Shown here in pieces: positions 29,992 through 34,017 of a DNA stretch of 64,000 nucleotides. Every line of letters begins with the position of its first letter. Positions within the stretch are counted from its first letter, which is position 1. Under the pieces are notes generated by a model. The model searched no databases. It worked only from the letters and a program-made list of their open reading frames with translations, and was not told the origin of the DNA. Source of the DNA: Terriglobia bacterium. Its GTDB lineage: Bacteria; Acidobacteriota; Terriglobia; Bryobacterales; Bryobacteraceae. The DNA is taken from positions 1 through 64,000 of the forward strand of contig JANYDS010000023.1 in NCBI GenBank assembly GCA_025363475.1, written 5' to 3'. The position numbers were made by a program, and so were the translations under genes.

Positions 29992-30546
29992 ATGTCAACG
30001 CCAGGGACCACAAACAAGACGGGCCAGCCGGTGCCGGATTTTGCCTTGCCACTACTGGGTGGCGAAGGTGTGCAGAGCCCGGCGAGTCTGCTTGAGGGCA
30101 AGCGCGGAGCGGTGATCATTTTCTGGTCTGGCGTGTGCTCCCACTGCCTGCGGTATGACGAATATCTAAACCGTTTTGCAGCGTCGCACGCGGAACTGGG
30201 CTTTGCAACTATCGCGTCGCGAGTGAGCGAAACGAAGGAACAAATGGTCTCTTCCGTGCGTGACCGGAAACTGACTTTCCCCATATTGCTGGACGAGGGC
30301 GCGAAGGTTGCACGGCTCTGGTTTTCACAGCAGACGCCGCGCTGTTATCTGATCGGGCCAGACAAGACAGTTCAATACCGCGGCGCAATTGATAATTTCC
30401 GCATGCCCGCAGACACCGAATATCAGGCCTGGCTTGAGCCCGCAGTCGTTTCATTCCTTGCCGGAGAACCGATTGCGCGACCCGAGACGGCAAGCTTCGG
30501 TTGCGCGATTGAGACTGTCTACTACCAGCTTCCCCGCCAGCTTTAA
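29992..30546 (+). CDS. Thioredoxin-fold redoxin (AhpC/TSA-like)
   Basis: 184 residues, no signal peptide visible. The active site is F-W-S-G-V-C-S-H-C-L-R-Y, a CxxC pair in the normal place after strand 1. It probably reduces peroxides or disulfides in the cytoplasm. It is divergent from the RidA-like gene across about 37 nt, which must hold both promoters. Compare the related minus-strand redoxin at 32968-34017, in which the first Cys codon is replaced by UGA. Confidence 0.88.
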   Translation: MSTPGTTNKTGQPVPDFALPLLGGEGVQSPASLLEGKRGAVIIFWSGVCSHCLRYDEYLNRFAASHAELGFATIASRVSETKEQMVSSVRDRKLTFPILLDEGAKVARLWFSQQTPRCYLIGPDKTVQYRGAIDNFRMPADTEYQAWLEPAVVSFLAGEPIARPETASFGCAIETVYYQLPRQL

Positions 30547-30563
30547 GAGACCGAATAAAATTC

Positions 30564-32888
30564 ATGAGCCTAGCCGAAACGTTTACGAAACTGGCCGTGA
30601 GTGCCGCACAAGCGGGCATCAGTGCCACGGGCGCCGTGATGAAATCCGCACAATCCGCCATTGAAAGCGCGGTGGAAGCGGTGACGGGTACGCCCGCGCC
30701 GGATACGACCCAGGCTCCACTTGACGGGCCACCGGATCTGGATCACGCGCTTTCTGATTTCGCAAATCGCGCGGCACGCATTTTCTATTTCATGCCGCCC
30801 AGTGCGTCGGCGGTTCCAGCTGCGTTTGAAAGCCTCGCGAATGCCGTAAGTGCCTCATTTCGACATGTAGATCTGCGCAACCCGGCGAATTTCACGCGAC
30901 TGCCGCTGGCGTTGGGTACGATGCTGACGGACGCGGGGTCGCGTGCGCTCGAAGGCATCGATGCGATTGGCGCGCCGCGTTATGCCGAGTTCATTCGCTA
31001 TGCGGTGCAGATTTTTTCAGAGTTTCCGGTTTACGTTACGCTGGAATACCGCGAGTTGATTGAGCGCCAGCAGCGGTGGCTGGTGGACCACCCGGATGAC
31101 TCCATCACACGCAAGGAACTGGGGCGTGCGTTCGTTAAGACGGGACGGTATGCAGAGGCTGCGGAGCAGTTGACGCGAGCGGCCGCGGGCGATGTATCCA
31201 TCCGCTCGGCGGCGCTGCATGAGGCCGGTGTCGCTTACTATTTTTGCGGCAGTTATAGCGAGGCCATAGCTGCGGAGTGCGGCGCACTTGATGCTGACAG
31301 CGAGAATGCCCCGGCGCGTTTCTGGCTCTGGCTGGCGGCGCAGAGAGTGGGCGGCTATCCGTTCGATGTGCCTGAACAGCACCGTATGGATATCAAGACC
31401 GGCTGGGGCGAAACCAGCCTGCGCTATGAAAATATCGCGGAGCACGCGGGGCTGGACAAGACCAGTGGCGGCCGCGGTATTGCGGTTTTCGACTACGATA
31501 ACGACGGCTGGCTGGATGTTGCAATTGCCTGTGCGCACGGCGGGACCAGTCTTTATCGCAACAACCGTGACGGCACATTTACGGACGTCAGTATTGAGAG
31601 CGGAATTTATCACGGCGTCAATGGTTTCGGCATGGCGGCAGGGGACTACAACAACAGCGGCTATCCGAGTCTGGCTATTTGCCGGATGGGCTTTTATGGC
31701 GGATTGATTGAACTGTGGCGCAACAACGGCGACGGCACCTTTACGGATGTGAGTGCGGAGAGCGGTGTTTCCGTTTGGGCTGCGGCTTTCAGTTGTTCGT
31801 GGGTTGATTACGACTGTGACGGCAGGCTCGACTTGTTCGTTTGCACCAATCTGGGCGGGCTGTTCGACCGCAAAGTGCAACACAAGCTGTTCCACAACAA
31901 TGGCGACGGCACGTTTACTGATGTGGCGGATAAAGCAGGAATTATTTCCGGCTGGCCGGCGATTGGCCACGCGTGGGGCGATTACAACAACGACGGGTAT
32001 CCGGACCTGTTTCTTTCGAACGCCGTGGGACGACCCCAGTTGTTCCGCAATAACGGTGATGGCACGTTTACGGAAGTGACGGCTGAGGCGGGTCTGGATT
32101 CGCCAACACTGGCGTTCAATGCGCAATTCTGCGACATCGATGACGACGGCTGGCTCGACATCATTCAGTACACCTGGGCAATTCACGAAGATGTGATTTA
32201 TTCCATGCGAAACGGCGAAGCGCCGCCGTACGGCCATGCGACCCGTGTCTTTCGCAATAATCGCGATGGGACGTTCTCGCTGATTAGCAGCGAGATTGGG
32301 ATTACCGAGTGTTGGGGCAGCATGAGCGGCAATGCGGCTGACCTTAATAACGACGGCTATCCCGATATCGTACTGGGCAACGGTGGCCCGCTGGTTGACC
32401 GGACCGAACCGATGGTGGTGTTGCAAAACGATCATGGGCAATTCCGCAATGTGACGTTCTCAGCCGGGTTGCCTTTGACCGGGAAGGGACACGGCATTAA
32501 CTGCGCGGATTTGTTTCAGGACGGTCGGTTGATCGTGCTCTGTGCGACGGGTGGTGCTTATCCGGGGGACCTTTCGACAACAGCGGCGTTCGCGCCTTCA
32601 GAGCGGCCGGGGAATTATCTGGCCGTCACTTTAGAGGGGACAACGAGCAATCGCGGGGCGATTGGCGCGAGGTTGAAACTGGTGGCGGGCGGGCGGGAAC
32701 AGCACCGCGTGGTGAACGGCGGGAGTAATTTTGGCTGCATGCCTCCTCAACAGCATTTTGGGCTGGGAACGCTGGAAGCAGTGGATTCTCTGGAAGTCTG
32801 GTGGCCCGGCGGAAAGATTGAACGTTTCATGAATTTGCCTGTGAATACCAAAGTGGTGATCACAGAGGGCTCCGATTCATTTCACTGA
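30564..32888 (+). CDS. CRTAC1-type FG-GAP/VCBS repeat protein with ASPIC/UnbV C-terminus
   Basis: 774 residues. The first about 290 residues include helical, TPR-like segments (A-E-A-A-E-Q-L-T-R-A-A-A). Then come repeated calcium-loop blades such as F-D-Y-D-N-D-G-W-L-D, N-N-D-G-Y-P-D-L-F and D-L-N-N-D-G-Y-P-D-I, with the linker F-R-N-N-G-D-G-T-F-T-x-V, forming a beta-propeller. The end is an ASPIC/UnbV domain (G-A-I-G-A-R-L-K-L...H-F-G-L-G...V-W-W-P-G-G). No clear signal peptide is seen, which is unusual for this mostly extracytoplasmic family. The repeated DNA here is coding and explains the local direct repeats. Confidence 0.9.
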   Translation: MSLAETFTKLAVSAAQAGISATGAVMKSAQSAIESAVEAVTGTPAPDTTQAPLDGPPDLDHALSDFANRAARIFYFMPPSASAVPAAFESLANAVSASFRHVDLRNPANFTRLPLALGTMLTDAGSRALEGIDAIGAPRYAEFIRYAVQIFSEFPVYVTLEYRELIERQQRWLVDHPDDSITRKELGRAFVKTGRYAEAAEQLTRAAAGDVSIRSAALHEAGVAYYFCGSYSEAIAAECGALDADSENAPARFWLWLAAQRVGGYPFDVPEQHRMDIKTGWGETSLRYENIAEHAGLDKTSGGRGIAVFDYDNDGWLDVAIACAHGGTSLYRNNRDGTFTDVSIESGIYHGVNGFGMAAGDYNNSGYPSLAICRMGFYGGLIELWRNNGDGTFTDVSAESGVSVWAAAFSCSWVDYDCDGRLDLFVCTNLGGLFDRKVQHKLFHNNGDGTFTDVADKAGIISGWPAIGHAWGDYNNDGYPDLFLSNAVGRPQLFRNNGDGTFTEVTAEAGLDSPTLAFNAQFCDIDDDGWLDIIQYTWAIHEDVIYSMRNGEAPPYGHATRVFRNNRDGTFSLISSEIGITECWGSMSGNAADLNNDGYPDIVLGNGGPLVDRTEPMVVLQNDHGQFRNVTFSAGLPLTGKGHGINCADLFQDGRLIVLCATGGAYPGDLSTTAAFAPSERPGNYLAVTLEGTTSNRGAIGARLKLVAGGREQHRVVNGGSNFGCMPPQQHFGLGTLEAVDSLEVWWPGGKIERFMNLPVNTKVVITEGSDSFH

Positions 32889-32967: not shown

Positions 32968-34017
32968 TCATGGCGTCTGGCGTTGCATGTCAGCGGGAAC
33001 GCGGGTTTGGTCGAACGGCGAGACTTTGACTACCCAGCGCAGCGGCACGGTTTCCGGAATAAAACATTCGCGGTGGTCGCAGGCCTGATAAAGAAACTCT
33101 CCTTCGATCACCAGTTGCCTTTCTTTATCGAGCAGCGGCTTAACCTGTTGCGCATTGCCCAGCGTTACAGTTTGCAGGACGCGAAAGCGGCCTTCATAGG
33201 CTGGCACAGTCTCGTGAATCGCAGCCAGCCTGATGGTCTTCGAGTTCGGGAATACCGGAGCATCAGGGCGGTAGCCGGGAGAATCATTTATCTTCAGCGC
33301 CACCGCTTTGTAGCCCTGAACGCCGGGTGCGTAAACATGAATCCGCTTCGGCAGAGTCACGTCCAGGCTTAGCGTGACGCGCTGCCCGGGCCGCAAGTCA
33401 GCCCCGCTTACCTGAGTCACCAGGGCCGCGTGCTTTGCCGTGATTGCCTGCTCCGCAGCCGACTGTGTCTGGATCGATTTCAGCCCGAACTGGCGCAACA
33501 AGATGGATGCCGAGGTGTCGCGGACGCGATAGTCTTCCTGAAAGAATTTCGCGGTGACGGTCCCGTTGCGGTCGAGGATATAAGTACCGGGGTGGGGGAT
33601 GCCGAAGAAGGCGTTGTTCCGGGCCACGGTCTCATTCAGAATTCCGTATTTGCGGATCACCGCTGAATCCGGATCGGACAGCAGCGAAAAACTGATGTGA
33701 GCGCGGTCCGCGAACTTCTTCAAAACCGCAGGAGAGTCATAGCTGACCGTTATTAAACCCAATCCCAAGGCTCGAATCCGCGCGGCATTTTGTTCCAGCT
33801 CGACCAGCTGGGCTTTGCAGTAGGGTCACCAGTCCGCTGAGCGGAAAAATACCAGCAGCGCGCCCTTTGAACCGAGGTTGGAACGCAGCGTTTGCACGTT
33901 GCCGTTCTGGTCCTTGAGACTGAAATCCGGCACTGACTCACCGATCGCCGGGCCGGTGGGGGTCGCTGCTGTGGCGGCGAAACCTGCAAGCAGAGCGATT
34001 AGAATTGAAGCGCGCAC
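32968..34017 (-). CDS. Candidate selenoprotein: redoxin with Sec-x-x-Cys site and DsbD-like C-terminal domain
   Basis: One frame of 349 codons is interrupted only by TGA at 33826-33828 (codon 64). The start has a signal peptide (A-S-I-L-I-A-L-L-A-G-F-A-A-T-A), then G-E-S-V-P-D-F-S-L-K-D. The site reads F-F-R-S-A-D-W-[TGA]-P-Y-C-K-A-Q-L, where relatives have W-C-P-Y-C, so TGA stands at the first Cys of CxxC. The fold continues unbroken (I-T-V-S-Y-D-S-P-A-V-L-K, P-H-P-G-T-Y-I-L-D). Residues about 215-349 resemble the DsbD N-terminal domain, with Q-A-C-D-H-R-E-C-F. A hairpin lies directly after the UGA. Alternative: a point mutation Cys to stop, or a sequencing error. Confidence 0.8.
33795..33811 (-). 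promoter_or_regulatory. SECIS-like hairpin after in-frame UGA
   Basis: In the mRNA, CCAGCU (33811-33806) pairs perfectly with AGCUGG (33800-33795) around the loop GGUCG (33805-33801). The loop begins 20 nt after the UGA. Bacterial SECIS elements lie within the coding region just after UGA, with a short stem and an apical loop carrying a G early and often GGU; this candidate fits both distance and loop. It is a short stem, so a chance palindrome cannot be excluded from the sequence alone. Confidence 0.65.

Follow-up and report, generated by a model that had tools for sequence, protein, structure and literature searches.

The minus strand of the window (the whole 64,000-nucleotide stretch of Terriglobia DNA that was analyzed) carries a redoxin gene whose reading frame is interrupted by a single TGA at its redox site, which raises the questions of how this TGA is read and what kind of enzyme results. 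The frame spans 32968–34017 (−), from a GTG start at 34017 to a TGA stop at 32968–32970, and encodes 349 residues when the internal TGA (33826–33828) is read as selenocysteine (Sec, U). That TGA is codon 64, follows W63 within RSADW-TGA-PYCK, and precedes 285 open codons. Under translation table 11, the frame is split into a 63-residue piece (33826–34017) and a 266-residue piece starting at a TTG (32968–33768). The full product comprises a hydrophobic N-terminus, a redoxin domain, and a DsbD-like domain, and both ORF translation and domain searches bore out the original prediction in its coordinates, reading frame, residue numbering, and order of domains. By hydropathy, the N-terminal segment (residues 1 to ~18; 33964–34017) is a probable signal peptide with a putative cleavage site at its end. 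A 13-residue segment with a mean hydropathy of at least 1.6 was present in 50 of the 56 TGA-containing genes described below (2.39 in the window gene), and the protein is probably exported, judging from this hydrophobic N-terminus.

Residues 21–181 (33475–33957) form the redoxin domain, which has an AhpC/TSA-like thioredoxin fold. PF00578 (AhpC-TSA) matched residues 25–156 with 105.2 bits (cut-off 26; E 2.9e-30), and in an AlphaFold2 model of the whole protein (mean pLDDT 87.5), residues 21–180 of the predicted structure matched AhpE and other peroxiredoxins with a Z-score of ~20 and an rmsd of 2.2 over 149 aligned residues. AhpE and Bcp (PrxQ) share this fold, and identity to AhpE is ~30%. 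When the two were aligned, Cys67 (33817–33819), the second position of the UxxC motif, fell on the cysteine of the AhpE TxxC motif (the peroxidatic cysteine of AhpE is Cys45). Sec64 fell on the threonine of that motif, and Pro143 (33589–33591) on residue 116, which is Arg in the native AhpE chain and Ala in the R116A entry. Both Cys67 and Pro143 are invariant in the nine-row family alignment. With the peroxiredoxin Thr and Arg replaced, the signature by which peroxiredoxins are recognized (TxxC or TxxU plus a conserved Arg) is absent from the window protein, which has instead a UxxC of the thioredoxin kind together with Pro. The Sec-x-x-Cys redox site that had been proposed for this redoxin therefore stands, and its description is refined to a thioredoxin-like UxxC set in a scaffold that resembles peroxiredoxins, as distinct from their own TxxU site.

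Residues 185–349 (32971–33465) make up the C-terminal domain, which profile matches and the predicted fold assign to the DsbD N-terminal (alpha) type. In the window protein alone, PF11412 (DsbD_N) scored 21.9 bits over residues 207–323, under its gathering cut-off of 25, but all nine members of the family alignment matched it with E-values no higher than 0.01 (lowest 1.2e-9). When the domain was modeled alone (mean pLDDT 88.6), a fold search returned the ScsB N-terminal domain first, with ScsB and DsbD N-terminal entries (1jpe, 1vrs, and 6c29 among them) occupying ranks 1–11 at Z-scores of 12.6–10.1, followed by 4kh9 at 9.8. A PDB sequence search with the same domain found nothing up to E 1, although the fold search matched. 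The DsbD-like assignment of the original prediction is thus supported by the family members and the predicted fold. The domain contains a CxxxxC pair, Cys313 (33079–33081) and Cys318 (33064–33066), both invariant in the nine-row alignment; the motif was found in 55/56 TGA genes and in 35/36 genes of the cysteine fusion form, the exceptions (L154 and L071) diverging or ending before it. One DsbD-TM protein, of 766 residues, was found in the host genome, and its N-terminal domain aligns with the C-terminal domain of the window protein (profile match, E 5e-8) and shares the CxxxxC pair. The two proteins differ in arrangement: in the host DsbD, the alpha domain is followed by membrane and thioredoxin-like domains, whereas in the window protein, which has no membrane domain by Pfam, it lies C-terminal of the redoxin. 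The host DsbD gene (388–2688 (−) of locus L158) encodes four parts, DsbD_N, DsbD_TM, Thioredoxin_7, and a TlpA-like AhpC-TSA domain.

These domains suggest two kinds of selenoenzyme. The first would be a selenoperoxidase in which Sec64 or Cys67 attacks peroxides as in Prx-like enzymes and the DsbD-like domain recycles the site; it draws on the fact that the redoxin domain best matches the peroxiredoxins AhpE and Bcp/PrxQ, both in sequence and in structure, and that the best NCBIfam match of the window protein is the thiol peroxidase model PRK09437 (66.4 bits against a cut-off of 140, with no NCBIfam model reaching its cut-off). The placement of Sec64 in the peroxiredoxin Thr column and of Pro143 in the Arg116 column speaks against it, as does the observation that the Sec peroxiredoxins recorded in Table 1 of PMC13188914 carry TxxU, not UxxC, and we regard a selenoperoxidase as unlikely. 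The second, which we prefer because the peroxiredoxin Thr and Arg are replaced, would be an oxidoreductase rather than a classical peroxidase, with the Sec64/Cys67 pair acting on thiol/disulfide (selenenylsulfide) bonds at a thioredoxin-type active site of a peroxiredoxin-like fold.

Both kinds presuppose that the TGA encodes selenocysteine, a question on which relatives of the gene are informative. A first homology search, covering 61 genomes (the host and 60 relatives), yielded long matches with a single internal TGA in many genera, spread over the family, order, and class. A second search, on a draw of 396 genomes from the phylum with four candidates scored per genome, gave matches at E 1e-30 or better in 61 of them. 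The redox site was then read in the fetched loci with the expression [WYF]-[UC]-[PQ]-x-C, which partly fixes in advance the layout of the rows it matched; of the 60 loci from the two homology searches, all but L130 matched (59/60), and eight loci without a match were left unread (L061, L083, L109, L113, L118, L121, L124, and L130). This reading gave 57 TGA rows, made up of the window gene twice (L001 and L128) and 55 relatives, among them a second copy in the host genome, together with 80 rows with TGC or TGT at the site (36 fusions and 44 single-domain proteins). A further collection scan, of which the best 80 of 167 matches were kept, was built on a cysteine codon pattern; it finds cysteine forms only and is unfit for estimating Sec/Cys frequencies. 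After identical downstream stretches were removed, the 56 TGA genes (window gene included) were reduced to 52, the 36 cysteine fusions to 29 (some contigs had been fetched twice), and the 44 single-domain cysteine genes to 43. The recurrence of this TGA in 55 relatives, where the frame continues open before and after it, confirmed that a single frame is interrupted only at 33826–33828 and ruled out a broken gene or a sequencing error. The codon also stands where relatives carry cysteine, as had been anticipated: TGC or TGT occupies it in all 36 cysteine fusions (29 distinct).

Downstream of the TGA lies a SECIS-like hairpin (33795–33811, −) with a 6-bp stem, a 5-nt apical loop GGUCG (33801–33805), and 20 nt between the UGA and the loop. 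The bacterial SECIS model printed in PMC13188914 calls for a stem of 4–16 bp, a loop of 3–9 nt with a G in the first two positions, a distance of 16–37 nt from the UGA, and an energy of −7.5 kcal/mol or lower; the hairpin agrees with it, having G at the second as well as the first loop position, then U, and a folding energy of −8.8 kcal/mol for the 17 nt alone and −10.3 kcal/mol with flanks. The pattern occurs once in the 64-kb window, where 0.14 occurrences are expected, and the window has no Rfam match at gathering score. The GGUCG loop resembles that of the E. coli fdhF SECIS.

Among the 52 distinct TGA genes, the six pairs of the stem were formed in 51, 52, 52, 52, 52, and 52, compared with 16, 18, 29, 19, 11, and 29 of the 29 distinct cysteine fusions. 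When each gene was recoded synonymously with its own codon use, the complete hairpin was expected in 9.0 TGA genes and observed in 51/52; the corresponding figures were 1.4 expected and 1/29 observed for the cysteine fusions and 0.2 and 0/43 for the single-domain cysteine genes. In the fourth pair, the last base of a Gln codon meets the opening base of a Leu codon, and these two codons covary in the TGA genes (CAG/CTG in 37, CAA/TTG in 14, CAG/TTG in one, and CAA/CTG in none; Fisher p 8e-12 with rows treated as independent). The outer pair varies likewise (C-G in 24, G-C in 26, T-A in one, and G-G in one). On the tree, the state of the Gln/Leu pair changed at least 10 times and that of the outer pair at least seven times; in independent pairs on supported branches, the changes were compensating in four to five of five (Gln/Leu) and in two of three (outer), the remainder being unchanged and never opposed, numbers too few for significance. 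The hairpin found in the minus-strand check that the original prediction had proposed thus also covaries. Folding energy of the +3 to +48 stretch was a weak signal, with a mean z of −1.05 in the 56 TGA genes and −0.35 in the 36 cysteine fusions, against mean values between 0.03 and −0.56 in other stretches. Val72, the V of QLV, is the residue whose codon contains the GU of the apical loop: the loop reads xGUxx in 52/52 distinct TGA genes, and the Val codon (GTN) that supplies the GU is present in 52/52 of these, in 6/29 cysteine fusions, and in 7/43 single-domain cysteine genes.

Absence of selA, selB, selC, or selD from the genome had been named as a reason to abandon the original prediction. 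Profile searches found all four in the host: selA (477.5 bits, cut-off 267.9), selB (350.7 bits, cut-off 242.25), selD (351.8 bits, cut-off 125), and the gene for tRNA-Sec (70.7 bits, cut-off 47), whose anticodon is tca by ARAGORN, i.e., tRNA-Sec(UCA). Nothing else that the prediction listed as contrary to it, and that sequence can reveal, was encountered. SelB was searched for in 47 genomes chosen from the 61 that matched in the second homology search, and tRNA-Sec at E 1e-9 in 11 chosen genomes. In the genomes where the TGA form was read by motif, which are the only ones tallied (30 from the first search and 23 from the second), SelB exceeded its cut-off in 50/53 (29/30 and 21/23, respectively). 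The three others (G005, G337, and G377, with assembly completeness of 88%, 97%, and 93%) had tRNA-Sec at E 1e-11 or better (61.7–69.4 bits). By comparison, SelB and tRNA-Sec were both absent from five of eight genomes with only the cysteine fusion (G349, G121, G148, G353, and G329), where "only" means a fusion-type cysteine form and no TGA form among the candidates scored (four per genome in the second search); G135 and G111, with shorter matches lacking a stop and with SelB, were left out of this set. In G453 and G444, which have only the cysteine fusion form, SelB and tRNA-Sec are nevertheless both present. The association between TGA form and Sec machinery has a Fisher p of 9e-6, uncorrected for relatedness. 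Among 14 control genomes, two (E. coli and M. jannaschii) reached the SelB cut-off. The tRNA-Sec model has limited specificity: hits over its gathering score include other long tRNAs and occur in five of the 14 controls, and at E 1e-9 it matches three of the 14, Thermus composti among them. The eighth genome with only the cysteine form, G036, has a tRNA-Sec (76.8 bits) and no SelB over the cut-off, which would reflect either a gap in its assembly or a Sec system in decay.

We conclude that the gene almost certainly encodes a selenoprotein. That the TGA is an ordinary stop, leaving a broken gene or two separate products, would suit the table 11 split and a second ORF beginning at the TTG at 33768, but such a start would fall after the active site, the frame is open on both sides of the same TGA in 55 relatives, the TGA goes with the Sec machinery, and the hairpin that follows it does not exceed chance in cysteine relatives; we consider this reading very improbable. 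Insertion of another amino acid without selenium (by near-cognate Trp or Cys decoding, or by a suppressor tRNA) has nothing direct in its favor beyond the cysteine at the homologous position elsewhere, which would make Cys insertion workable, and it is hardly credible given that SelB or tRNA-Sec is found in 53/53 motif-read TGA genomes, that the five genomes lacking both carry cysteine codons, and that the hairpin conforms to the bacterial SECIS model.

The alignment of relatives proposed earlier to look for Cys/Sec exchange showed such exchange at this codon. At least 12 Sec/Cys changes were counted on the best 97-row tree, which took only every fourth single-domain cysteine row; 10 of these, which are counted irrespective of direction, are forced by supported branches. 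An 85-row tree without the outgroup and one long row gave 11. The host genome itself contains a second copy of the fusion gene on another contig (L041, G000:C23:47418-48434, −), which has RSADWUPYC and shares the hairpin pattern, and whose linker is longer. Two other redoxins, L162 (G021:C299) and L161 (G059:C28), have an in-frame TGA (RGYWUPYC and RGHWUPFC, respectively), and the frame as read includes no DsbD-like domain in either; the same CAGCTCGTCGAGCTG hairpin recurs in L162, and the two probably constitute a separate selenoprotein group. A contig of a MAG labeled Bifidobacterium breve (L075) encodes an acidobacterial-type cysteine fusion that is sister to L066 in the tree, and this contig is probably misbinned or mislabeled.

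Taken as a whole, the gene product reads as a selenium-containing thiol/disulfide oxidoreductase that carries a DsbD-type relay of its own as a fusion partner, an interpretation that we favor with moderate confidence. SelB and tRNA-Sec(UCA) would decode UGA codon 64 as Sec under the direction of the hairpin that follows at 20 nt within the coding region, and the protein would be exported by virtue of its hydrophobic N-terminus. Electrons would then pass from the DsbD membrane relay to Cys313/Cys318, on to Sec64-Cys67, and finally to an oxidized substrate. With enzyme and reductant joined in one chain, both would travel together. DsbD-alpha is a donor to thioredoxin-fold clients (e.g., in the DsbC complex 1jzd), which makes a fused chain of client and hub plausible. 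Whether the DsbD-like domain would reduce Sec64-Cys67 of the same chain, a tethered relay argued from domain content, we judge to be evenly balanced. Our broadest proposal is tentative and combines three parts that we hold jointly, at somewhat less than even confidence: that the protein may be a self-contained exported selenoenzyme, in which a selenium redoxin and the DsbD-alpha domain that supplies it with electrons form one covalent chain, along which electrons from the membrane pass from the Cys pair to the Sec-Cys bond; that the SECIS may also constrain the protein through the loop GU in the codon of Val72; and that the lineage may switch repeatedly between Sec and Cys.

The surroundings of the gene were compared over flanks of 1.5–3 kb for most loci. 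No operon partner emerged, as neighboring ORFs of the window each match at most one relative locus besides its own L001 and L128. Among the relatives themselves, neighbor families recur at as many as 11 loci, most of them in the closely related set L008–L024. A sigma-factor-like ORF family occurs in the flanks of 10 loci (L006, L041 (the second host copy), L052, L066–L070, L072, and L134), and its proximity may reflect chance or regulation. A role as a defense protein was also considered, and PADLOC gave no match up to E 0.001. Elsewhere in the window, at 29992–30546 (+), is another AhpC/TSA redoxin, in the cysteine form FWSGVCSHC, directly upstream of an FG-GAP/ASPIC-UnbV protein (30564–32888).

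Prx-like selenoproteins with UxxC are established (PMC1794560, PMC1088965, and Table 1 of PMC13188914). The Prx-like thiol:disulfide oxidoreductases among them, which have PF00578 with UxxC or UxxU (e.g., in Geobacter; PMC1794560, PMC13188914), share PF00578 with the window protein and likewise have UxxC in place of TxxU; the window protein thus carries both marks of membership, the domain and the motif (WUPYC). It adds a C-terminal DsbD-alpha domain with CxxxxC, of which there is no mention for these oxidoreductases in the relevant part of PMC1794560 or in Table 1 of PMC13188914. The selenoprotein listed as "Redoxin family protein" (PMC9312934, PMC13188914; MBA3499694.1, HEU0032618.1) resembles it in its redoxin-type name and UxxC, a comparison of name and motif only, and the present family may or may not be the UxxC "Redoxin family protein" of the 119-family inventory of PMC13188914. 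Table 1 of that inventory does not mention a redoxin/DsbD-alpha fusion. It does include TsoB, a rhodanese/DsbD fusion-like selenoprotein (NF045694), which also has a DsbD-type fusion and differs, by its description there, in its rhodanese partner and UxxxxU motif. SelL-related redox proteins (NF040769) gave a weak profile match to the window protein (53.2 bits), far under the cut-off of 120 and outside that family. Fusions of Prx-like 2 and 3 with other domains have been reported in PMC2398784, whose supplementary figure gives the partner domains. We found no earlier description of a redoxin/DsbD-alpha selenoprotein fusion in the open-access literature.

Because annotation with table 11 breaks the gene in two, the enzyme can easily go unnoticed; the survey places it in many families of Acidobacteriota, the phylum being judged from named relatives. 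The natural Sec/Cys switches in the family, together with its covarying SECIS, make up a large body of data that bears on the protein cost of an RNA structure and on why Sec is kept or lost. The DsbD-alpha fusion, for its part, suggests a specific source of electrons for an exported selenoprotein.
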